Shown: positions 5,284 through 22,474 of the stretch, in pieces
Layout of the letters: each line of letters begins with the position of its first letter
How positions within the stretch are numbered: the first letter of the stretch is position 1
Source of the DNA: Alphaproteobacteria bacterium
GTDB lineage: Bacteria; Pseudomonadota; Alphaproteobacteria; ATCC43930; CGMCC-115725
Assembly (NCBI GenBank): GCA_030041385.1
Contig: JASHNY010000225.1
Coordinates: 1 to 46,803 of the forward strand
Reading direction: 5' to 3'
Length of the DNA: 46,803 bases
Notes under the pieces: model-generated
The model's database searches: none
What the model was told of the DNA's origin: nothing
Seen by the model: only the letters and a program-made list of their open reading frames with translations
Translations under genes and position numbers: made by a program

Positions 5284-5724
5284 ATGATCGGCACACGCAA
5301 AGGATTGACCGGCTCCGCGGCCTATCGCGCGACGGAAGGCGTCGGCGCGATGCCCGAGGACTACATGAAGATGGCGCTCGATGCGACGCGAATCCTGTTG
5401 ATGCGCGCCGAGGCGGCGATCGCCGCCGGCGATCGGGCCGAGAAGGCCAAGGCGCTCGGCTCGGCCGGCAATGTCGTTGAATTCATGCTCGGTTTGTCCG
5501 GGGTCACGCCCGGCGCACTCAGCGATTGCCTTGCCAGCGTCTACCAGTATGTTCTGGCGGCAATCCTGAAGGGCAATGCAGGCGACGACGGGGAGGCGGT
5601 GGCGGCGGGGCGGGTCGCGCTGGAAGAGCTGGCGGCCACTTGGCGCAAAATATTTCCCGATGCGGTAGCCTGGGGGGAAACCGGCGACGATGCCGGGTTG
5701 ATCGGGAGCGCGCACCATGCCTGA
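5284..5724 (+). CDS. fliS: Flagellar export chaperone FliS
   Basis: A 146-residue all-helical protein that binds the C-terminus of newly made flagellin and keeps it from polymerising in the cytoplasm. The start (MIGTRKGLTGSAAYRATEG) resembles the tyrosine-containing FliS N-terminus, and the helix ILLMRAEAAIAAGDRAEKAKAL plus the later ASVYQYVLAAILKGN segment follow FliS helices 2-4. It begins 9 bases after the fliD stop; the fliD stop region itself provides the purine-rich ribosome-binding sequence. Its last 8 bases overlap the next gene, so it is translationally linked to flgM. Residues after about 130 are a divergent tail. Confidence 0.88.
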   Translation: MIGTRKGLTGSAAYRATEGVGAMPEDYMKMALDATRILLMRAEAAIAAGDRAEKAKALGSAGNVVEFMLGLSGVTPGALSDCLASVYQYVLAAILKGNAGDDGEAVAAGRVALEELAATWRKIFPDAVAWGETGDDAGLIGSAHHA

Positions 5725-6040
5725 TCCGATCCAGGGCGTAAACACCAGCGGCCCGATCGGCACGATCGCCAGCGGGCAGGCCGGCGCAAGCCAGGCCTCC
5801 GCCGCGTCGTCGGCAGCGACTCCGGCGGCGGCGATCGATCAGGCCGATGTCGGCGGCACAGCCGCGCTGTTGACGACGATCGCCGAGGCGGCGAGCGAGG
5901 TGCCGACGATCGACGAAACGCGCGTCGCGGCGCTGCAGCAGGCGATCGCCGCCGGCACCTATCAGGTCGATCCGCAAAAGATCGCGGAAGGACTGATGCA
6001 GCTCGAGTCGGGGATCGCCTCCGGCGGGGGTGGTGCGTGA
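5717..6040 (+). CDS. flgM: FlgM-type negative regulator of flagellin synthesis (anti-sigma-28 factor)
   Basis: A 107-residue protein with a disordered Ala/Ser/Gly-rich N-terminal half and a C-terminal FlgM signature: VPTIDETRVAALQQAIAAG followed by TYQVDPQKIAEGLMQLE. In known FlgM proteins this half binds and inhibits FliA until the hook is complete, then the protein is exported. The start overlaps the fliS stop by 8 bases. This gene is more often found beside flgA or flgN; here it closes the filament operon, so its synthesis is tied to that of flagellin, cap and chaperone. No fliA gene is visible in the window. Confidence 0.8.
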   Translation: MPDPIQGVNTSGPIGTIASGQAGASQASAASSAATPAAAIDQADVGGTAALLTTIAEAASEVPTIDETRVAALQQAIAAGTYQVDPQKIAEGLMQLESGIASGGGGA

Positions 6041-6080: not shown

Positions 6081-6359
6081 CTACGAGGCGAGCCGCAAGC
6101 CGACGAAGATCGGATCGGCGGCGGCGCGCTCGGCGGCGCGGCGGATCCAGTCCTGCACCAGGGCGAGCCGATCGGCGGCCTGGTGGATGTCGTCGCGGTC
6201 GGCAATGTCGCGGAAGGCTTCGAGAATCTGTTCGAGGCATTCGGCCTCGGTCGCGACGACCGCCGGCGCCGTGCCGTCCTGGCACCCGCGCCCCGCCGCG
6301 ATCGCCCGTACCCGCCTCAATGTTCGTCGCCGGACCATTCCCCCCTCGGCGATACCCAA
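6081..6359 (-). CDS. Small hypothetical protein (92 aa)
   Basis: I do not recognise this protein. It runs opposite to the flagellar genes and ends 40 bases past flgM. The reading frame shows the strong G/C third-position preference of genuine genes here, while the overlapping plus-strand frames give Arg/Ser-rich translations typical of shadows. The first 25 residues are basic. The rest is acidic to amphipathic helix (CLEQILEAFRDIADRDDIHQ and ALVQDWIRRAAERAA), suggesting a small helical protein or partner. An alternative start is the Met at residue 8. There are no membrane segments or signal peptide. It could belong with the flagellar cluster or with the divergent regulator that starts at 6522. 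Confidence 0.5.
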   Translation of the reverse strand: MGIAEGGMVRRRTLRRVRAIAAGRGCQDGTAPAVVATEAECLEQILEAFRDIADRDDIHQAADRLALVQDWIRRAAERAAADPIFVGLRLAS

Positions 6360-6475: not shown

Positions 6476-6504
6476 TTGACGATAAATGAAAAGTTTTCAA
6501 TCTT
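6476..6504 (+). promoter_or_regulatory. Candidate promoter with a palindromic operator upstream of the XRE regulator
   Basis: In a locally AT-rich stretch, TTGACG (6476-6481) could be a -35 box with a weak -10 at 6499-6504 after 17 bases. Between them lies a perfect 13-bp palindrome, TGAAAAGTTTTCA (6487-6499), which is unusual in such GC-rich DNA. Its place in the spacer just ahead of an HTH regulator gene suggests an autoregulatory operator. The boxes are by eye only. Confidence 0.35.
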
Positions 6505-6521
6505 CTGTCGCGGAGCCCGTC

Positions 6522-7580
6522 ATGCGCGCCAGAGCCGAGATCGTTTTTCCTAACAATATCAAAGAGTTCCGTTTAAGACGGCAACTCACGCAGGAACAAC
6601 TCGGCCGTATGATGGACCCGCCGATCGGCGAATCGACGATTTCCAAGATGGAAAGCGGCGAGCGCCGGCTGACCAATTTGCAGCTCACCGAGCTCGCCAG
6701 CATCCTGCGCTGCCGCCCCGATGAAATCCCTGTCGTCACCGGGCGCGACCCGGCGCCGGGGGTGGAGCGCTGGCAGAAGGCGCAGCAGGAAGCGATCGGC
6801 AACAGCATTGCCAGCGGCGCCGCCGCGACCGGCTACGTGCTCGCGCAACTGCGCAAGAAGCACGGCAAGACGATGCAGCAGGTGGCGAGCGCGATCGGCA
6901 TGACGCTGTCGGTCTACCACCGGATGGAGATGGCGAGCCGCATCATCCAGGGCGACGAGATCGAGGCGGTCGCGGCCTTCTATGGGATGGGCGCGGCCGA
7001 CCTGATCGCCCTGTTCGAGCGGCGCACCCGCGACAACCTGGAGCAGCTGAAGAACGGCGTTCCGCCCGAGCGGCTGCTGCCGCGCGTGCCGCGCTCGCTG
7101 CTGCGCGAGGACGCCAAATGGGGCCGGCTCGGCGCGCTCGAGCGCTACGCGATCCGCCGCAGCATCCGCTATGTCGGCGCCCCGGCCGAGGCGGTGTCGC
7201 TGCCGGTCTACGGCCAGATGAAGACCGGCAAGGACGGCAATCACCATTTCGCGATCGACCTCGACGCGGTCGTCGACCAGGTCCCGGTGCGCGACCTCGT
7301 GCGCCCCCACGACGAATGCTTTCTGGTGCGCAATTTCTCGCAGCGTCTCGGCTTTCTGCTGCGGCCCGGTGCGCTCGCCTATGTCGATCCGCGAGCACCG
7401 GTGGCGATGGGCGATATCGCGTTTTTCGTCAGAACCAACGGCACAGCCGACGCCGGGGTCGTGATCGGCGACGGGATCGGCCCGCTGACGGTCAAGATGT
7501 ACAACCCCGAAGAACAGGTGCCGCTCGGCGACCCGACCATCGCCAGCGTGCTGCGCATCGGCATGCTGATCCTGCCGTAA
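6522..7580 (+). CDS. XRE-family transcriptional regulator with two HTH domains and an S24/LexA-like C-terminal domain
   Basis: A 352-residue putative repressor. Residues about 12-67 form an XRE helix-turn-helix (FRLRRQLTQEQLGRMM, then STISKMESGERR). A second HTH-like unit lies at about 104-155 (RKKHGKTMQQVASAIGMTLS). Residues about 225-352 resemble the S24/LexA fold: ECFLVRNFSQRLG, GDIAFFV and LTVKMYNPEEQV. The lysine of the LexA dyad appears kept (K325), but the usual G-x-S-M serine is not: the aligned position is near R275, with only S273 close by. Self-cleavage is therefore doubtful. The start at 6522 is preferred over the in-frame ATG at 6486 because GGAG lies at 6512-6515 with 6-base spacing, and the earlier ATG sits inside the candidate promoter. 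The ligand or signal is unknown. Confidence 0.85.
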   Translation: MRARAEIVFPNNIKEFRLRRQLTQEQLGRMMDPPIGESTISKMESGERRLTNLQLTELASILRCRPDEIPVVTGRDPAPGVERWQKAQQEAIGNSIASGAAATGYVLAQLRKKHGKTMQQVASAIGMTLSVYHRMEMASRIIQGDEIEAVAAFYGMGAADLIALFERRTRDNLEQLKNGVPPERLLPRVPRSLLREDAKWGRLGALERYAIRRSIRYVGAPAEAVSLPVYGQMKTGKDGNHHFAIDLDAVVDQVPVRDLVRPHDECFLVRNFSQRLGFLLRPGALAYVDPRAPVAMGDIAFFVRTNGTADAGVVIGDGIGPLTVKMYNPEEQVPLGDPTIASVLRIGMLILP

Positions 7581-7788: not shown

Positions 7789-10074
7789 ATGCAAACAAGG
7801 CGGGCAGGCCTGTCGCGGAGGAGGCCGGAGCGCTTTCCGCTTCCGATGGCGCTTGTGCTTGCCGTCGCCGTCTTCGCATTGCCGCTCGGCATTGCAGCCT
7901 TCCCGGCAGGACGCGCGCTGCTGACCACACACTGCGCCGCCATCCTCTTCGCCGCGGCAGCCGCGGCCGCCGCCGCCGCGGTGCTGGCCGGCTGCATAGT
8001 GCGGCTGCGGCGCGAGGCAGAGGCGACGCGGCACCGTGCGCCGACGGGCGACGCCGCCGCATTTCGCCTGTTTGCCGCGCTCGCCGCCGAGGTCGAAGAA
8101 TCGCTGAAGGCGGTCCTGCGCGCCGGCGCCAGGCTCGACCAGGCCGCGCTGCCGCCCGGGCAGGCCGAGATCATCGCGCGCATGCGCCTGGCCGCGCGCG
8201 CCGCGCTGGTGCAGGCCGGCGCCGCCCCGGCCTATGCCGCAATCGCTGCCGGCGAGTTCGCGCTGGAGACCCGGCCCTTCGACCTCTACCAGCTGATCCA
8301 CGGCACGGTTGCGGCATTGCGGCCGCAGGCGGCGGATCGCGGCAGCGCGCTGATCGTGCGGATCGACCCGCGCCTGCCCTATGAATTGCGCGGCTGGCCG
8401 CACCAGCTGCGTCAGCTCGTCACCGCCCTGGTTGCCGGCGCGTTGCGGCATTCGCAGCGTCCGGCGATCGAGGTGCGCCTCGACCTCGCCGCGGCTGCGG
8501 GCGACGGGGTGCGCCTGCGCCTCCTCGTGCGCGACCACGGCACCCGTGCCGCCGATCGCGATGCGGGCCCCGCCCGGATGCCGGGTGCCGACGGCGATGC
8601 TGCGCTGGCGGCGGCGGCACGCCTCGCCGCGGCGATGGGCGGCGCGGTCGAATTCGATACCGGCGCGCATTCCGGGCTGGTCTACAGCGTCGAGTTGCCG
8701 TTTGCCCTCGACCGGGCGGCCGCGGCGCTATTGCTCGACCTCGATCGGCTGCCGGTTTTGGTTGCAACCGACGATGCCCGGTTTGCCGATGAATTGGCCG
8801 CCGCGCTGCAATCGTGGCGTGCCGAGCCGCTGTGGATCGGCATGGAAGAGCCGGCATTGGCGGAGATCGAGGCCATGCGGCCCGACCGGCAGCGCCCGGT
8901 ATTGATCGTCGACGGCCGCGGCGAGGTCTTGGCGGCGTTGAGCTGGGCCTATCGCGCGACCAAGGCCAACCCGACAGCCGCACCCTTTGTCCTGTTTGTC
9001 GCCGACGAACCCCGCATCGACAGCGTGATCGGCCTTGCCGACGGCCAGCTCGACGCCATCCTTCCCGCGCCCTTTACCCGCGGCGTCTTGCAGAGCACGT
9101 TGCATGCGCTGTGCGTCGGCGCAGCCGACTGGTTTCCGGCCGAATTGCCGACGCCGGCGGCGAAGTTGCCGCCGCCGCCCGATAGCCGCGTCGCGCCGCC
9201 CGCCGACAGCGCCCCGGAAATGCGGCCGGAGCTGATGCCCGAGCCGATGGCCGAGCCGGACACGCGCAGCGCGCCCGCCATGCCCGAGCCGCGGCGCCGG
9301 TTGCGCGTGCTGGTCGCCGCCGCCAACGCGGCGAACCGCAAGATCATCGAGCGCATCCTCGCCACCGCCGGGCACGCCGCCGATCTCGCCGCCGATGCCG
9401 GCGAGGCGGCGGCCGCCCTTGCCGCGAACCCGATCGACGCGGTCCTGCTCGATTTCGCCGCGCTCGGCGACGGCGAGGTCGCCATCGCCGAAGAATGCCG
9501 CGCGGCCGAGCCCGGGATACCGATCATCGCGTTGAGCGGCGACGCCGCGGCCGGGGAATTGCTCGATGCGGCCGGCGTCGACACCGTGCTGGGCAAGCCG
9601 GTCGAGCCGAGCCGGCTGATCGCGGCGATCGAGACCGCGGTTTTCGGCGCGCCGGCGCCGCCTCCGGTGACGGCGGCGAGCATCACCGAGATCTCGTCGC
9701 ACCCGCGGTTCGGCCGCATCGGCGCGGCGCCGATCGACCGACGCGCGGTCGACGCATTGTGGTCGCTGGGCGGCGGCGGCCGGTTTTTTCAGGATGTCGT
9801 CGCCGCTTTCCGGGCCGACGCGCGGCAGTTCCTCGCGCAGATCCGCACCGCTGCGGCCGCCGGCGACAGCGACGCCTTTGCCGCCGGCGTGCAGGGGCTG
9901 CGCCGCTGCGCCGCCAGTTTCGGCGGCACAAAGCTGCGCGACCTGCTGCAGTCGGCACCGGGGCCGGGCCCGCGCGAATTGCGCATCGACGGCCCGGGTT
10001 ACGTGCAGCAATTGACCGAGGAAGTGGCCCGGCTCGACGATATGCTGGCGAACTACCGCAAGGCAGGGGAGTAG
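7789..10074 (+). CDS. Hybrid histidine-kinase-like protein with degenerate phosphorelay residues (TM-DHp-CA-REC-REC-Hpt)
   Basis: A 761-residue membrane protein with the layout of an RpfC-like hybrid kinase. Two membrane segments lie at about 20-40 and 49-71, then DHp/CA-like regions (92-305), two receiver-like domains (about 319-445 and 505-618), a Pro-rich linker (455-500) and an Hpt-like domain (650-755). Key residues are altered. The DHp histidine is A100. The N-box asparagines are A213 and G217, and the glycine-rich ATP boxes are not recognisable. The second receiver has A511/A512 for its acidic pair, though D555 and K603 remain. The first receiver keeps D328, D329 and D375 but has A427 for lysine. 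The Hpt histidine is Q702. The reading frame is intact with normal codon use, so it is probably expressed as a scaffold or sensor rather than an active kinase. The ATG at 7789 has only a weak ribosome-binding site. Confidence 0.8.
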   Translation: MQTRRAGLSRRRPERFPLPMALVLAVAVFALPLGIAAFPAGRALLTTHCAAILFAAAAAAAAAAVLAGCIVRLRREAEATRHRAPTGDAAAFRLFAALAAEVEESLKAVLRAGARLDQAALPPGQAEIIARMRLAARAALVQAGAAPAYAAIAAGEFALETRPFDLYQLIHGTVAALRPQAADRGSALIVRIDPRLPYELRGWPHQLRQLVTALVAGALRHSQRPAIEVRLDLAAAAGDGVRLRLLVRDHGTRAADRDAGPARMPGADGDAALAAAARLAAAMGGAVEFDTGAHSGLVYSVELPFALDRAAAALLLDLDRLPVLVATDDARFADELAAALQSWRAEPLWIGMEEPALAEIEAMRPDRQRPVLIVDGRGEVLAALSWAYRATKANPTAAPFVLFVADEPRIDSVIGLADGQLDAILPAPFTRGVLQSTLHALCVGAADWFPAELPTPAAKLPPPPDSRVAPPADSAPEMRPELMPEPMAEPDTRSAPAMPEPRRRLRVLVAAANAANRKIIERILATAGHAADLAADAGEAAAALAANPIDAVLLDFAALGDGEVAIAEECRAAEPGIPIIALSGDAAAGELLDAAGVDTVLGKPVEPSRLIAAIETAVFGAPAPPPVTAASITEISSHPRFGRIGAAPIDRRAVDALWSLGGGGRFFQDVVAAFRADARQFLAQIRTAAAAGDSDAFAAGVQGLRRCAASFGGTKLRDLLQSAPGPGPRELRIDGPGYVQQLTEEVARLDDMLANYRKAGE

Positions 10075-10086
10075 GCGCGGCGGGCC

Positions 10087-11310
10087 TTATTGCCGCATCG
10101 CGGCGCGGCGCTGGGCGACCAGCGCGACGGCGCGGTCGCGGTTGTCCCAGCAGACCTGCAGATAGCGGATCGCGCTGGCGGCGACGAACACGGACAATGC
10201 ATTGTTGTAGGCTGCGGCAGCCTGTTCCAGCTGCTCGGTGCCGTCTTCGCGCTCGCCGATCCGGTGCAGGGTGCTGGCGAGGTTGTTCTGGGCCATCGCC
10301 CAGTCGAGCGGTGCCCGCTCGCGGTTGTATTCCTCGAGCGCGAGCCGGTAGGCGGCGACCGCCTCCTCCAGCCGCGCCGTGCCCAGTTCGCGCTCGCCGA
10401 CCCGCGCCAGCGCATTGCCGAGATTGTTCTGGGTCATCGCCCAATCGAGCGGAGCGACCTCGCGGCGATATTCCTTGAGCGCTTCGCGATAGGCCGCCAC
10501 CGCCGCCTGCAACGGCGCGTCCTCGTTGCGCTCCTCGCCGAGCACGGACAGCGCGTTGCCGAGGTTGTTCTGGGTCATCGCCCAATCGAGCGGGTTGCGG
10601 TCGCGCCGATACACCTGCAAGGCCTGGCGATAGGCGGCGACGGCGGTCTCGATCAGGCTCGCATCGCCGCGCCGCTCACCCAGGCTCGCCAGCGCATTGC
10701 CGAGATTGTTCTGGGTCATCGCCCAGTCGAGCGGCGCCCGCTCGCGGGTGCGCTCGCGCAAGGCTTGGCGGCAGGCGCCGACCGCCTCTTCGAGCCGCGT
10801 CGTCCCCTCTTCGCGCTCGCCGAGGTTGCGCAGTGCGGCGCCGAGATTGTTCTGGGTCATCGCCCAGTCGAGCGGCACGCGCTCGGGCCGGTATTCCTTG
10901 AGCGCCTCGCGATAGGCGGTGACCGCCTCTTCGAGCCGCGCCATCCCGCTTTCCCGCACCCCGAGCGTGCGCAGCGCGGCGCCGAGATTATTCTGGGTCA
11001 TCGCCCAGTCGAGCGGCGCCCGCTCGCGGCGGCATTCCTGCAAGGCCTCGCGATAGGCGGCGACGGCTTCTTCGAGCCGCTCGGTGCCGCGTTCGCGCTC
11101 GCCAAGCTGGCGCAAGGCATTGCCGAGGCTGTTCTGGATCATGGCCCAGTCGAGCGGCTTGCGGCCCCGGTCGGATTTCTTGAGCGCGGCGCGGCAGGCC
11201 GAGATCGCCGCCTCCAGCCGCGCCGTCCCGGCGTCGCGGGCGCCGATCCGCACCGTCGAGTTTGCCTCGGTCATCGTCGCGGAAAACCGGGTCAGGCTGT
11301 TCGCGTCCAT
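10087..11310 (-). CDS. Tetratricopeptide-repeat protein with seven near-identical units
   Basis: A 407-residue protein likely to act as a soluble protein-protein interaction scaffold. Seven units of exactly 47 residues begin at about residues 52, 99, 146, 193, 240, 287 and 334, each with PLDWAMTQNNLGNAL or a close variant, followed by LGERE..T.RLEEAVAAYREAL. This is the TPR-type 'NNLG.AL..LG' pattern. The C-terminal 30 residues (NNALSVFVAASAIRYLQVCW) leave the repeat. The start at 11310 is chosen because a purine-rich GGGCGGGGGA lies upstream and the frame further 5' is Arg/Pro-rich and non-coding in style. It converges on the hybrid kinase gene with 12 bases between stops. No enzyme domain is attached. 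A possible promoter is TTGCCA (11371-11376 on the minus strand) with 17 bases to GATTGT. Confidence 0.88.
   Translation of the reverse strand: MDANSLTRFSATMTEANSTVRIGARDAGTARLEAAISACRAALKKSDRGRKPLDWAMIQNSLGNALRQLGERERGTERLEEAVAAYREALQECRRERAPLDWAMTQNNLGAALRTLGVRESGMARLEEAVTAYREALKEYRPERVPLDWAMTQNNLGAALRNLGEREEGTTRLEEAVGACRQALRERTRERAPLDWAMTQNNLGNALASLGERRGDASLIETAVAAYRQALQVYRRDRNPLDWAMTQNNLGNALSVLGEERNEDAPLQAAVAAYREALKEYRREVAPLDWAMTQNNLGNALARVGERELGTARLEEAVAAYRLALEEYNRERAPLDWAMAQNNLASTLHRIGEREDGTEQLEQAAAAYNNALSVFVAASAIRYLQVCWDNRDRAVALVAQRRAAMRQ
10294..11270 (-). repeat. 141-bp in-frame tandem repeat (seven copies) encoding the TPR units
   Basis: The DNA copy of the PLDWAM motif recurs at about 10294, 10435, 10576, 10717, 10858, 10999 and 11140, with a constant 141-bp step and no indels. 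Inner copies are the most alike and outer copies the most diverged, as expected for unequal exchange within an array. Confidence 0.9.
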
Positions 11311-11688
11311 TGCTTGCGCATCCCCCGCCCGCAGGCCGGAGGCGGCCACAATCGGTCTTTTGCCCGGGCTTGGCAACCGGCCGGAAACAGCCCGTGTCGC
11401 CGTGCCGCCCAACCTGTCTAACCTATTGATAAAGCACGGGTGCCCGGACCGCAGCCGGGCCGCAGGCCGGGCGGGCCGCGCGCCTCGGCGCGGCATCGCC
11501 GCAAGCGATTCTCGGCCGGCCGCAGCTATCGTTAAAGTGTTTCAATTAACCATCAAATTCGTTGTAACCGGGCCGCCGGGCATAGATAAAATGCTGGTGA
11601 AATCCGGCCGGCCCCGAGTCCCCCGTTCCCCCCAAATGGGAGCCGGTCGGATTTCAGATCGAGCATCGGCAGCGAGTCGAGGCGAGCG
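11311..11688. other. 378-bp divergent intergenic region
   Basis: Lies between the TPR gene (minus) and a small plus-strand gene. It is GC-rich from 11440 to 11520 and clearly AT-richer at 11520-11595, which probably holds promoter elements. I see no coding region, repeat or RNA gene in it. TTAA and TTAAC at 11531-11550 are 10 bases apart, so they do not form a CtrA site. Confidence 0.5.
11562..11590 (+). promoter_or_regulatory. Candidate sigma-70-type promoter
   Basis: TTGTAA (11562-11567) and GATAAA (11585-11590) are separated by 17 bases in an AT-richer stretch. This would start transcription about 90 bases before the small gene at 11689 and could also feed clpB. Each box matches the consensus at four of six positions. 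Confidence 0.35.
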
Positions 11689-11916
11689 ATGGATCCGGCG
11701 CAGATGTACCGAACCTATGAACGCCGGGCGAAGGAAGCGGCGAGCCCGGCCTTTCGCACCGTCAACATGCTCGGCATGATGTGCGCCGCCGCGGTCGCCC
11801 AGGGCGGCCTGTTTGCCTTTGTCGGCAAGGGCTATGGCGGCGATTGGCCGAACCCTTGCGAGCCGGACGACACGGTTCCGGCGCGGGGCGCGGGCCGCAC
11901 GGGGACGGGCGAATAG
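11689..11916 (+). CDS. Small hypothetical protein (75 aa)
   Basis: I do not recognise the family. The translation starts MDPAQMYRTYERRAKEAASP, has a short apolar stretch (VNMLGMMCAAAVAQGGLFAF, about residues 24-44) that could be a single weak membrane or packing helix, and ends in a Pro/Gly-rich polar tail. Third positions are almost all G or C, as in genuine genes of this window, and a purine-rich GAGGCGAG precedes the ATG. A promoter-like pair lies about 100 bases upstream. clpB starts 155 bases further on, so it could be the first gene of that transcript. The minus-strand frame over the same bases is Arg-rich and is probably a shadow. Confidence 0.5.
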   Translation: MDPAQMYRTYERRAKEAASPAFRTVNMLGMMCAAAVAQGGLFAFVGKGYGGDWPNPCEPDDTVPARGAGRTGTGE

Positions 11917-12071
11917 CCTTCCCCGGCGTCGGGCCGGCCTGCACGGCAACTTGAGTTTCGGCCGGAAAGCCCCCATCTCAGCATCGTGATGCCAGGCGGT
12001 CGCGCATTCTGCGGGCCGCGAGCGACATCATCCCGTGCCTCCTGGAGGGCGGGCTTGAACGAGGGGCCTTT

Positions 12072-14735
<2,664 letters not shown>

Positions 14736-14747
14736 CCCTGGGAAGTT

Positions 14748-14820
14748 GATGGGCTTTGCGAGGCTCAGCCCATCCTACGGCACGACATCGTAGGATGGGA
14801 TGAGCGAAGCGACGCCCATC
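14748..14820. repeat. Long inverted repeat between convergent clpB and peroxiredoxin genes
   Basis: Two 32-bp arms, each GATGGGC...CCCATCCTACG in complementary orientation with a few mismatches, flank a 9-base loop. It belongs to a dispersed intergenic palindrome type with CGTAGGATGGG cores seen in many proteobacteria. Because it separates two convergent genes it could stop transcription from both sides. Confidence 0.7.
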
Positions 14821-14827
14821 GCTTTTC

Positions 14828-15310
14828 CTACAACCCCGCCAGCATCGCCTCGGCGCTGGAGACGCCGTATTCGCCCGACGGCTCGACGTTCAGCGCCGTC
14901 ACCACCCCGTCATCCACGACCATCGAATAGCGCTGCGAGCGGATGCCCATGCCGGCCTCGGTACGATCGAGGTCGAGCCCGACGGCCTTGGTGAACTCGG
15001 CGCTGCCGTCGCCGAGCATGACCAGCTTGTCGCCGACATCGTGCGCCTTGCCCCATGCGTTCATGACAAAGGCGTCGTTGACCGACAGGCAGGCGATCGC
15101 ATCGACGCCCTTGCCCCGGATCGCCGCCGCGTTGTTGACGTAGCTCGGCAAGTGGCGCTGCGAGCAGGTTCGCGTATAGGCGCCCGGCACCGCGAACAAT
15201 GCGACCTTGCGGCCGGCAAAGAACTCGTTCGAACCGACCGCCTTGACCCCGTCCGGCGTCAGGTAGCGCAATGTCACCGACGGAACCCTGTCGCCGACCT
15301 TGATCGTCAT
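14828..15310 (-). CDS. Peroxiredoxin, Prx5-like
   Basis: A 160-residue thiol peroxidase that reduces H2O2 and organic hydroperoxides. The peroxidatic site is VPGAYTRTCSQRHLPSY: P42, T46 and C49 fit the family's P-x3-T-x2-C motif, with Tyr and Arg in place of the more common Phe and Pro/Gly. The N-terminus MTIKVGDRVPSVTLRYLTPDG and the RSQRYSMVVDDGVVTALNVE strand pair are typical of the Prx5/AhpC-TSA subgroup. A second cysteine (IACLSVND) could act in the cycle. A strong GGGGAGG site overlaps the end of the upstream oxidoreductase gene 15 bases away, so the two are co-translated. There is no fused glutaredoxin domain, so the reductant is unknown. Confidence 0.93.
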   Translation of the reverse strand: MTIKVGDRVPSVTLRYLTPDGVKAVGSNEFFAGRKVALFAVPGAYTRTCSQRHLPSYVNNAAAIRGKGVDAIACLSVNDAFVMNAWGKAHDVGDKLVMLGDGSAEFTKAVGLDLDRTEAGMGIRSQRYSMVVDDGVVTALNVEPSGEYGVSSAEAMLAGL

Positions 15311-19438: not shown

Positions 19439-22400
19439 CTAGGCGGATATGACGGCTTCGATGCCGTCGTCGTGGGCGGGTGTCGCGGTCGGTTCGCTCG
19501 ATGCGGGCGCCCCGGCGGTGACCGGCAGCAGGATCTTGAACACGGTGCCTTTGCGGCGCTTGCTGTTGACCTCGATCCGGCCGCCGTGGTCGGTGACGAT
19601 GCCGTGCACAACCGACAGGCCGAGACCGGTGCCTTGGCCGACGCGCTTGGTGGTGTAGAACGGCTCGAAGATGCGCTCCACCGTCGTCGCATCCATGCCG
19701 CAGCCGGTGTCGGCAACCGACAAGACGACCGCGCTTCGCTCCGGCGCGATTTCGCCCGGCGTTGCCGCGGCGACGGTCACGGTGACCGTGCCCGGCTGCT
19801 TGCCGATCGCCTGGATGCTGTTGGTCACCAGGTTGACGATGACCCGTTGCAGCTGGGCGGCGTCGCCCAAAATATCCGGCACGGCGTCGATCTCCTCGAC
19901 GAGCCGCACCGCGGCGGGCACGGTCACCCGCAGCATCTGCAGCGCCTTTCGCGTCAGCGACGCGAGATCGACCGCCTCCTTCACCGAGACCTGGTTGCGG
20001 CTGAACATCAGGATCTGCTGCAACAGGTCGCGGGCGCGTTCGCTGGCGAAAGAGATCATCTCGATGTCTTCGCGGTCGACGCTGCCTTCGGGCATGCGCT
20101 CGGCGACCATCTTCGACAGCGACAGGATCGGCACCAGCGTATTGTTGAGGTCGTGGGCGATCCCGCCGGCCAGGGTCCCCAGCGCCTTCATTTTCTGGGA
20201 ATGCTGCAACTGGCGTTCCAGCTCGCTCTGCCGCGCCTGTGAGGCGCGCAGGTCGGTCACATCGCGCATCGTTCCGGCCACCATGATCGGGGCGCCGGCA
20301 TCGTCGCACAACAGCTCGCACTCGCGGGCGACGTGGCGGATCGTATTGTCGGGCCGGATGACCCGGAATTCGAACGGCGCCGGGCACACGCCCCGGTCGA
20401 TCTCCGCGTCGGCCTTGAGCAGCAGGGCGCGGTCGTCGGGATGCAGCAGCGCCAGCAATTGGTCCATGGAAGGCACGAAAGTCTGGCGCGCCAGGCCAAA
20501 AATCCGGAAGGTCTCATCGGACCATTCCATCCGTCCGGTGCGCAGATCGCGCGTGTCGCAGCCCATCTTGGCCAGGCGTTGCGCACGGTTGAGCCGTTCT
20601 TCGCTGTCGCGCAAGGCTGCCTGCGCCGCCTTCATCGCGCTGATGTCGATGCGCAGGCCGGCAATCCCGCCGTTGCGCATCGGGCGTTCGCAGATCAGCA
20701 GCCAGCGGCCGTTGCTGTGCCGCGCCTCGAACGCGCCCTGCGGGTTGCGGTGGGATTCTAGCCGCTTGGCAAACCATTCCTCTTCGCAGCCCACCGCGTC
20801 TGCGTAAAGCCCGCGCTCGAGGCCCTCGCGGATGATGTCTTCGAACCGGGTGCCGGGAACGAGCACGGTGCGATTGCTCGGGTAGAGTGCGAGGAACGCG
20901 CTGTTGCACAACGCCAGGCGATCCTCGCGGTCGTAGATGACAAAGCCTTCCGAAATGCTTTCGACCGCGTCGCGCAGCAGAGTCTCGGCCCGCTCGGCGC
21001 GGGAGCGTGCCTCGACGATCTCGGTTTCGTTGGTGCCGACGCCGCGATAGCCGAGAAATGCCCCGGCCGGATCGAAAATCGGCCTGCCGTTGACCGAATA
21101 ATAGACCGGCTGCCCGCTCGGCGAGAGCGCGGAATAGCGGAACTGGCGCAGCGGCCGGTGCGCATCAAGCTCCGCCTTGTGAGCGCGCCACTTGTCGTCC
21201 GTGTTGGGATCGCCCCCGGCCAGTTCCCAGCGGGTCTTGCCGACCATGTACTCGACCTCGATGGCGAGCCGCCGCCGCAACTCGCCGGCGCTGCCGCCGC
21301 TGAACGAAAGGAAGCGGTGGTCCGGGCCGGTTTCCCAGATCACGTCGGCGGCGACCTCGACGACGTCGCGGAAGCGCTGCTCGCTCTCGCGCAGTGCCGC
21401 TTCGGTAAGCTGGTGCTCGCGCACTGCCTGCTCCGAACGGGCGACCGCCTGCTCCAGCGCGACGCGCGCCTGGGTCTCGGCTTCGATCTTGGAGCGCGCC
21501 GCGGCGACCTGCTCGCGCGCGATCAGGTGACGGCGGAGCAGCGCCGTGATCAGGCCGATCACGATCACCCGGGCGATCGTCGCGCCGCCGAGCACCACAG
21601 CTTCCTCGCGCCACCCGGCAAGCGCGGCGGCCTCGGTCATGCCGACTGAGACGGTCAGCGGATAATGCTGCAGCGGCTGCCGCGCCGCGATGGCAGCGAG
21701 CAGCGCGGGCGCCGCGGCCGACGCCGGCGGAGACTGCGCCAGCAGCGTCCCGTCGTCGCGCCGTAGCGACACCGCGCCGTCGCCGCCTAGGCCGGCCGCG
21801 GCAAAGAGGTTCTCGAAATAGGCCGCCCGCAGCGTGGCGACGACGACGCCGGCAAAGGCGCCGTCGGCGGTGTTCACGCGGCGCATCCAATAGATCGACG
21901 CCCCGCTGGTTTCCTCGCCCCCGGCCGGCAGCGCGCCGATGAATTGTTCGAGTTTCGGATGATCGCGCAACGCCGCGATGCCCGGGCGCCATGCGGCCGG
22001 CGCGGTGATGGTGGGACCCGACGAAACCAGCACCGAGCCGTCGGCGCCGATCACATCGAGCGCGGCGAGCTGCGGCATCGCAAAGAGCTGCTCTGCCAAT
22101 GCGGCAGGAGTAACCAATCGCCTCGCGGCGTCGCCAGCCGCCGCCTCGCTGCCGGCAGCGGCGGGGGTCAGTCGGGCGACCAGCTCCGAAACCGCGAGAT
22201 CGACCCGGTGCAGCGCGCGGTCGGTCGCCCCGGCTTCGACGCCGGCGAGCCTGGCGGTCTCGCTGCGCGCATCGGCAAGCGCGGCGCGGCGGAACTGCGA
22301 CATGATCACGGCATTGCCGAGCAATACGGCGAGGATGGCCAGCACCCCGCCCGCCCACACCCACCAGTACGGCGGCCATTGCGACGGGTGAGCCCAGGAG

Positions 22401-22474
22401 AAGCACGCCCGCCACCGTCCGAGGCGAAGCGCGAAGGCGTTGACGTTGGCGTCTGCGTCGTGGAGATCGATCAT
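19439..22474 (-). CDS. Membrane-bound PAS-domain sensor histidine kinase
   Basis: A 1011-residue sensor. Membrane segments at about 37-58 and 292-314 enclose a periplasmic sensor domain (60-290, dCache-like by its position and the LDVIGADGSVLVSSGP strand pair). A coiled linker follows, then three PAS regions at about 365-490, 497-620 and 625-745; the last contains HPDDRALLLKADAEIDRG and FEFRVIRPDN. The HisKA H-box is LAGGIAHDLNNTLVPIL with phospho-acceptor H774. The ATPase domain has N-box NLVTNSIQAIG, ADTGCGMD, a FEPFYTTK F-box and GTGLGL. All catalytic boxes look intact. Its partner regulator follows directly. The start at 22474 has no strong ribosome-binding site. The signal is unknown. 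Confidence 0.93.
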   Translation of the reverse strand: MIDLHDADANVNAFALRLGRWRACFSWAHPSQWPPYWWVWAGGVLAILAVLLGNAVIMSQFRRAALADARSETARLAGVEAGATDRALHRVDLAVSELVARLTPAAAGSEAAAGDAARRLVTPAALAEQLFAMPQLAALDVIGADGSVLVSSGPTITAPAAWRPGIAALRDHPKLEQFIGALPAGGEETSGASIYWMRRVNTADGAFAGVVVATLRAAYFENLFAAAGLGGDGAVSLRRDDGTLLAQSPPASAAAPALLAAIAARQPLQHYPLTVSVGMTEAAALAGWREEAVVLGGATIARVIVIGLITALLRRHLIAREQVAAARSKIEAETQARVALEQAVARSEQAVREHQLTEAALRESEQRFRDVVEVAADVIWETGPDHRFLSFSGGSAGELRRRLAIEVEYMVGKTRWELAGGDPNTDDKWRAHKAELDAHRPLRQFRYSALSPSGQPVYYSVNGRPIFDPAGAFLGYRGVGTNETEIVEARSRAERAETLLRDAVESISEGFVIYDREDRLALCNSAFLALYPSNRTVLVPGTRFEDIIREGLERGLYADAVGCEEEWFAKRLESHRNPQGAFEARHSNGRWLLICERPMRNGGIAGLRIDISAMKAAQAALRDSEERLNRAQRLAKMGCDTRDLRTGRMEWSDETFRIFGLARQTFVPSMDQLLALLHPDDRALLLKADAEIDRGVCPAPFEFRVIRPDNTIRHVARECELLCDDAGAPIMVAGTMRDVTDLRASQARQSELERQLQHSQKMKALGTLAGGIAHDLNNTLVPILSLSKMVAERMPEGSVDREDIEMISFASERARDLLQQILMFSRNQVSVKEAVDLASLTRKALQMLRVTVPAAVRLVEEIDAVPDILGDAAQLQRVIVNLVTNSIQAIGKQPGTVTVTVAAATPGEIAPERSAVVLSVADTGCGMDATTVERIFEPFYTTKRVGQGTGLGLSVVHGIVTDHGGRIEVNSKRRKGTVFKILLPVTAGAPASSEPTATPAHDDGIEAVISA

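Follow-up and report, generated by a model that had tools for sequence, protein, structure and literature searches.

The locus and the catalytic residues of its hybrid-kinase gene

We analyzed a stretch of 46,803 nucleotides, hereafter the window, which is contig C215 (JASHNY010000225.1) of an alphaproteobacterial genome of 4.39 Mb in 264 contigs (G000). It carries a cluster of FliC, FliD, FliS, FlgM and XRE genes, which we call the fla locus, in the order glycosyltransferase, FliC, FliD, FliS, FlgM, a small reverse open reading frame (ORF), XRE, a 761-residue hybrid-kinase-like protein and, reverse, a tetratricopeptide repeat (TPR) protein (Table 1). An earlier note, made from the letters of this DNA, had described the gene for the 761-residue protein as a hybrid histidine kinase that keeps the full phosphorelay layout and has lost most of its catalytic residues. 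We report here that the residue losses and the ratio of nonsynonymous to synonymous change (dN/dS, omega) support its status as a pseudokinase. The order of transmembrane (TM), DHp, CA, REC, REC and Hpt parts over 761 codons is borne out by the ORF, Pfam, the alignment and a structural model, and the frame is indeed intact from its ATG onwards.

Table 1. Features of the window and, in the last row, of contig C209 of the same genome
Feature	Position	Strand	Basis
FlgM anti-sigma-28 factor	5717..6040	+	profile match
92-residue ORF between FlgM and XRE	6084-6359	-	matched in G001, G002, G003, G007
XRE-type regulator, two helix-turn-helix (HTH) domains, upstream syntenic neighbor	6486..7580	+	synteny
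Pseudo-histidine-kinase gene, 761 residues, TM-DHp-CA-REC1-REC2-Hpt	7789..10074	+	ORF, ATG start, Pfam, alignment, model
Two predicted TM segments, residues 15-74, remnant of input region	7831..8010	+	hydropathy, alignment
DHp-like helical hairpin, residues 81-154; phospho-His position A100 at 8086-8088	8029..8250	+	
CA/HATPase-like domain, residues 155-312; N-box A213/G217, F box lost, G1/G2 partly lost	8251..8724	+	Pfam HATPase_c below cut-off
REC1 pseudo-receiver, residues 316-442; D329, D375 kept; without Lys, Ser/Thr	8734..9114	+	alignment
Pro-rich linker between REC1 and REC2	9115..9300	+	alignment
REC2 receiver, residues 505-619; D555, S583, K603 kept; acidic pair A511/A512 lost	9301..9645	+	Pfam Response_reg above cut-off
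Hpt-like helical bundle, residues 656-761; phospho-His position Q702 at 9892-9894	9754..10071	+	Pfam Hpt below cut-off
TPR-repeat protein, downstream syntenic neighbor	10090..11496	-	synteny
Sensor kinase, 1011 residues, PAS domains	19442-22474	-	Pfam
C209: dead hybrid kinase and the REC-PAS-kinase beside it	13402-15003 and 11047-13389	-	alignment

To place the protein, we searched 39 genomes of the window's family for related hybrid kinases (E <= 1e-30, best candidates of each genome scored) and found matches in 19; the resulting alignment holds 20 proteins from 17 of them. Two genomes of another genus of the same family (G028 and G032, genus g9) were excluded, and the DHp and CA motifs of their hybrid kinases were intact in an earlier alignment. 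One further protein, from the main locus (defined below) of G003, was trimmed to its C-terminal 800 residues because its frame continues upstream. G009, a relative with intact kinase residues, served as the reference for positions in the window protein.

Aligned to G009, the window protein has A100 in place of the DHp histidine, A213 and G217 in place of the N-box asparagines, A511/A512 at the REC2 acidic pair and Q702 at the Hpt histidine, each as the earlier note had read it. In the ATP site, G1 keeps D249 and G251 and G2 keeps one aligned glycine, G269; no N-box asparagine, no F box and no further glycine of G1 or G2 survives. REC1 called for a correction. Its lysine position is A427 as claimed, but this loss is not specific to the gene: all 20 aligned members, including those with intact kinase residues, keep the aspartate and have Ala for the lysine and Ala or Val for the Ser/Thr, so that the conversion of REC1 to a pseudo-receiver predates the death of the kinase. 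The residues listed as remaining (D328, D329, D375, D555 and K603) are all present, although the aligned acidic residue of REC1 is D329 rather than D328, and S583 can be added to them. The histidines of the protein lie at residues 48, 82, 171, 205, 221, 250, 294, 439, 529 and 638. A shifted H-box or Hpt histidine, which would have overturned the claim, was looked for and rejected: no histidine falls inside the DHp helices or the long Hpt helices.

Profile searches, proposed earlier as a check, agree with these losses, which the alignment confirms. In Pfam, the 761-residue protein matches a receiver at 507-615 above the cut-off, whereas the matches to HATPase_c (205-306) and Hpt (670-722) fall short of their cut-offs, and there is no HisKA match up to E 10 and no PAS domain; the best NCBIfam matches are the hybrid kinases TorS and BarA, far under their cut-offs. 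We modeled the structure with AlphaFold from three sequences (mean pLDDT 59), having rejected a single-sequence model as poor (pLDDT 47). The model runs from a helical hairpin through an alpha/beta domain and two (beta-alpha)5 domains to a helical bundle; pLDDT is mostly 70-88 in REC2 and the Hpt core and below about 53 in the TM and DHp part. Predicted helices span 86-114 and 123-154 in DHp (low confidence) and 663-691, 694-711 and 728-760 in Hpt. The best Foldseek match of the model is ShkA (6qrj; E 4e-18 over 538 columns, the domain arrangement not being superposable), followed by GacS and RetS. By simple hydropathy the protein has two TM segments, versus 4-8 in the other 19 aligned proteins, one of which is contig-cut and one trimmed.

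A chance open frame is ruled out by full-length homology and by a probability of about 1e-5 for 761 codons at this base composition. Alanine makes up 23.5% and GARP 48% of the protein, and the codon-position periodicity of GC content is kept. GC content is 0.739 at 8001-10000 of the window, versus 0.649-0.712 in the other 2-kb blocks, and derives from high GC at the first and second codon positions and from alanine in the pseudokinase gene. The second dead copy of the same genome, on C209, is similarly rich in alanine (23.9%). A promoter scan found no sigma-70-type promoter; terminator-like sites numbered five where 1.8 were expected.

The window protein thus has neither the DHp histidine, the full ATP boxes, a complete receiver nor the Hpt histidine of a functional hybrid kinase. 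It has the fold and homology of a histidine kinase together with the loss of at least one catalytic function, by which section 6 of PMC12632262 delimits pseudo-histidine-kinases, the loss of activity being one that we infer. The marks of a pseudogene (stops, frameshifts, dN/dS near 1) were not found, bearing in mind that a branch average is blind to a very recent onset of decay.

Descent of the dead clade and its partner kinase

The DHp histidine is retained, together with the N, G1, F and G2 boxes, in nine of the 20 aligned members, which come from five other genera. REC2 is visible in eight of these nine (G027 is contig-cut), seven of which have the whole set of acidic pair, Asp, Thr and Lys, the pair being E-H in G030; the Hpt histidine is present in all seven in which Hpt itself is present (G030 and G027 are cut). 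The other 11 have A, E, D, R, Q or G at the DHp histidine, and come from the window's genus, g1 (nine proteins), and from a further genus of the family, g11 (two). In a tree with nine outgroup kinases these 11 dead proteins form a single clade with support 100/100. The support was the same after columns around the DHp, CA, REC2 and Hpt catalytic motifs were dropped (five outgroups), and we therefore reject attraction by shared catalytic losses as the source of the clade. Most simply, the DHp histidine would have been lost once, in the common ancestor of the clade.

The clade consists of three groups whose branching order is unresolved: six g1 copies at what we call the main locus, the ancestral hybrid-kinase locus beside a partner kinase; two g11 copies; and three fla-locus copies, from the window and from the same-genus genomes G003 and G007. 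REC2 is lost in all six g1 main-locus copies and in one g11 copy, the other having Gly at its phospho-site, and is retained in the three fla-locus copies. The Hpt histidine survives in two of the ten dead members that bear an Hpt, namely the main-locus copies of G000 and G007. The expectation that orthologues would show the same losses holds for most of them: the DHp histidine position is E in G003 and D in G007, the REC2 acidic pair is T-G or A-G, and the Hpt histidine of G007 is replaced by A. It does not hold for the second N-box asparagine, to which we return below. No hybrid kinase was matched in G002 or G004 at E <= 1e-25.

The partner is a REC-PAS-HisKA-HATPase kinase. For 16 of the 17 main-locus copies (G017 is contig-cut) its gene lies upstream of the hybrid-kinase gene, on the same strand and at gaps of -1 to 754 bases. 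One extra gene intervenes in G022 and G013, a DUF1275 gene by Pfam in G013 and its homologue in G022. Across 16 aligned partner sequences the DHp histidine and the N, G1 and G2 residues are intact without exception. The receiver phospho-aspartate is kept in all ten partners outside g1, including that of G062 in g11, and absent from all seven found in g1, a count of six aligned sequences plus the partner of G004, which lies at a contig edge and was inspected visually. In G002, the remaining one of the eight g1 genomes, no partner was matched at E <= 1e-100. The identity of the partner receivers is 0.75 within the nine kinase-intact genomes and drops to 0.54 in g1, and identity in DHp (0.86 and 0.87) and CA (0.66 and 0.67) is unchanged. 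In G000 the dead hybrid kinase of C209, about 40% identical to the window protein in the matched part, has lost REC2 and kept its Hpt histidine; the REC-PAS-kinase beside it has intact catalytic residues and has lost the phospho-aspartate of its receiver.

Selection and the flagellar setting

The dN/dS check bore out the earlier note: the ratio is far below 1. In pairwise codon fits, likelihood-ratio tests (LRT 262, 164 and 286) reject omega = 1 for each of the three pairs of fla-locus copies, at saturated synonymous divergence (dS). Because free pairwise dN/dS was saturated, we borrowed the dS of the branches from neighboring genes, which gives the window branch an omega of 0.26 (dS from XRE, FliD and FliS) or 0.32 (XRE alone) and again rejects omega = 1 (LRT 314 and 239); left free, dS on this branch saturates, with an LRT of 222. 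Neighboring genes have an omega of 0.09 on the same branch. The proposal that selection keeps the protein thus stands as purifying selection and needs the qualification that the window copy is about three times looser than its neighbors. Omega also differs among the three fla branches (LRT 55 or 16), and the frames of all three orthologues are open at a neighbor-gene dS of about 0.9-1.6 per branch. The window gene is constrained yet relaxed.

To locate this constraint, we scaled the distances of each domain to the partner-kinase distance of the same genomes, for 36 kinase-intact, 15 main-locus dead and three fla pairs (fewer for REC2 and Hpt); the pairs share branches and are not independent. 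The median relative distance of DHp goes from 0.69 in kinase-intact pairs to 2.02 in main-locus dead and 2.12 in fla pairs, that of CA from 1.17 to 2.25 and 1.82, and that of REC2 from 1.05 to 2.11 in fla pairs. REC1 did not rise (2.37, 1.79 and 1.49), and the values for Hpt are 1.62, 1.48 and, from one pair, 2.48. Sister pairs (four kinase-intact, two dead) point in the same direction for DHp, CA and REC1, with Hpt also up, from 1.20 to 2.05. REC1 is accordingly the loosest domain of the intact kinases and the tightest of the fla copies, of whose domains it is the best conserved; in main-locus copies Hpt is tighter still. Constraint has moved off the catalytic domains DHp, CA and REC2, and not off REC1. 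Within REC1 of the fla trio, 25 of 43 columns of beta4-alpha5 are invariant versus 31 of 86 elsewhere (Fisher p 0.02, uncorrected).

The window pseudokinase is a paralogue at the flagellar cluster, present in three of the five genomes in which the cluster was found, and its arrangement is common to G003 and, within the reach of its contig, G007. In G002 (C320, 8761-11118) XRE is followed directly by TPR on the + strand, opposite to the TPR gene of the window, with no pseudokinase between them; judged by gene order, this site is the outcome of an insertion, a loss or an inversion. G001 has no copy in the 2.6 kb left after XRE on its contig. An XRE protein with two HTH domains was found in eight of the 39 genomes of the family, and in G028 and G032 of genus g9 it likewise neighbors FliD and FliS; it is possibly a flagellar regulator. 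Matches of the 92-residue ORF cover 50-79 residues at 59-68% identity, and it has no Pfam match. The 1011-residue sensor kinase scores strongly for HATPase_c, just under the cut-off for HisKA (26.7 vs 26.9 bits) and below the cut-off for Cache. A loss of chemotaxis, considered since G000 gave no match to the CheA dimerization domain, was rejected: CheW and Hpt occur in one 737-residue frame on C44, which we read as CheA-like.

Proposed function and relation to known systems

We think it probable that the window protein is an inherited, membrane-anchored pseudo-histidine-kinase, one member of a single dead clade, that acts by protein contact on a live kinase. Such a protein would not productively bind ATP, autophosphorylate or relay phosphate, and REC1 and the DHp/CA body would make the contacts with its partners. 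Receivers are described as commonly using their alpha4-beta5-alpha5 surface for dimers or partners (PMC12632262), and the beta4-alpha5 part of REC1, the most constrained in the window's orthologues, contains this surface. The likeliest target would be a catalytically intact kinase: one option is the partner kinase encoded beside the ancestral copies, another a hetero-oligomer with the dead copy on C209. The target kinase might be modulated allosterically, after the manner of DivL on CckA and RetS on GacS, and the position in the FliC-FliD-FliS-FlgM-XRE cluster suggests an output that touches flagellar expression. The role earlier proposed, a scaffold or a binder of phospho-proteins, would be a reasonable one for such a protein.

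Several observations weigh against this reading. No partner kinase adjoins the window copy, and the fla-locus gene was not found in G002 and G001 despite the same locus. The G003 fla copy has no Hpt at all. Both orthologues keep the second N-box asparagine, and the G007 HATPase_c domain passes its Pfam cut-off (28.3 vs 26.4 bits), so that loss of the ATP site is further advanced in the window copy. The enrichment of invariant columns in beta4-alpha5 is absent from the six main-locus copies (p 0.13), the nine kinase-intact members (p 0.43), the 11 dead members (p 1.0) and all 20 (p 0.67). To these we add the saturated dS of the free fits, the threefold relaxation relative to neighboring genes, the alanine content and shortened input region of the window copy, and its branch, the longest of the fla trio (0.88 vs 0.60 and 0.40).

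Some of these points would fit a slowly decaying duplicate, the window copy being an early pseudogene with an open frame that selection partly holds. The long branch, the Ala and GARP content, an omega about three times that of the neighbors and unequal among branches, the loss of most TM segments and the absence from G002 and G001 all favor this. We nevertheless consider it unlikely, given the rejection of omega = 1 on the window branch, the GC periodicity that is kept, three frames open over such synonymous distances and a REC1 that is not relaxed. Less probable again is a phospho-sensor whose REC2 takes up phosphate or mimics a phospho-receiver, as a sink or as a reader of the phospho-state of another kinase: REC2 keeps its Asp, Ser and Lys in all three fla copies and was dropped by the six g1 main-locus copies, but all three have lost the acidic pair, which is expected to abolish Mg2+ binding, and in the fla trio REC2 is no better conserved than CA. 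Least probable of all is a ligand sensor in which REC1 would take up a small molecule, for example c-di-GMP, and pass its state on through the dead kinase body. In its favor, the HK-REC1-REC2 order with its ancestral pseudo-REC1 recalls ShkA (the best Foldseek match), and it is in REC1 that constraint has survived; against it, none of the 20 REC1-REC2 linkers (12 of them leading to REC2) has the DDR motif found in the linker of ShkA, and the REC1 profile matches ordinary PDB receivers and not ShkA.

Contact with a live kinase, the reading that we prefer, leads to a wider and more tentative proposal, namely that a phosphorelay was turned into a phosphate-independent module. A single loss of the DHp histidine would have been followed by loss of the partner aspartate in one genus (all seven copies) and a shift of constraint towards the pseudo-receiver; the flagellar late-gene cluster would have recruited a second dead copy, the signal passing by contact from pseudokinase to pseudo-receiver to live kinase. 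Two observations on the partner weigh against both. Its receiver has Ser at the lysine position in all ten aspartate-bearing sequences, atypical even outside g1; this receiver may never have accepted phosphate in the normal way, and the case for a relay that was severed is weaker for it. The other observation is that G062 keeps the partner aspartate although its hybrid kinase is dead.

To our knowledge, few pseudo-histidine-kinases have been worked out, DivL and RcsD among them. DivL of Caulobacter, also an alphaproteobacterial protein, shares with the window protein the histidine-kinase fold and a replaced phospho-histidine; it binds ATP poorly and works by contacts with a response regulator and another kinase (PMC4211667). 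The layout given there for DivL includes PAS domains and lacks both REC and Hpt, whereas the window protein has no PAS, and the histidine is described as a conserved Tyr in most DivL homologues and Ala in one, versus the varied replacements of the dead clade. With Ala at 100 and no PAS, the window protein lacks the marks of DivL.

Fused Hpt and TM segments set the window protein apart from ShkA, whose Hpt is a separate protein. ShkA (also from Caulobacter) has the same HK-pseudoREC1-REC2 order and is described as an active kinase with a DDR linker motif (PMC7010744), unlike the window protein with its lost kinase residues; we set ShkA-type c-di-GMP control aside because the motif is missing. 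RcsD, whose kinase domain is inactive, is reported to keep a reactive Hpt histidine and relay phosphate (PMC13317618), whereas the window protein has lost that histidine and has two receivers. RetS, as cited in PMC9491836, is a hybrid-kinase-like protein that steers another kinase, GacS, by hetero-oligomers; RetS and GacS are also PDB hits of the window protein, at an identity of about 22-25%. The ChrS pseudokinase of evolved Corynebacterium glutamicum is inactive and still improves signaling via a paralogous kinase, but it arose by a laboratory frameshift in CA rather than as an inherited clade, and the account of it in PMC9491836 has no REC or Hpt. By its sequence, the window protein is distinct from a functional hybrid kinase, DivL, ShkA and RcsD and falls under pseudo-histidine-kinases in the broad sense. 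No description of this hybrid-kinase family turned up in the literature, judged by titles and abstract starts of the top-ranked entries.

A missing histidine is reported for 0.9% of HisKA (722 of 76,471) and 0.9% of Hpt (90 of 10,312) domains (PMC12632262, section 6), so a protein without both in an otherwise complete layout should be unusual, the two losses surely not being independent. Taken together, these genomes form a natural series, from intact relatives in five genera to a dead clade in two, with graded loss of REC2 and Hpt and loss of the partner aspartate in one. The series makes it testable how a phosphorelay becomes a contact-only signaling module, and in which order its parts fall.

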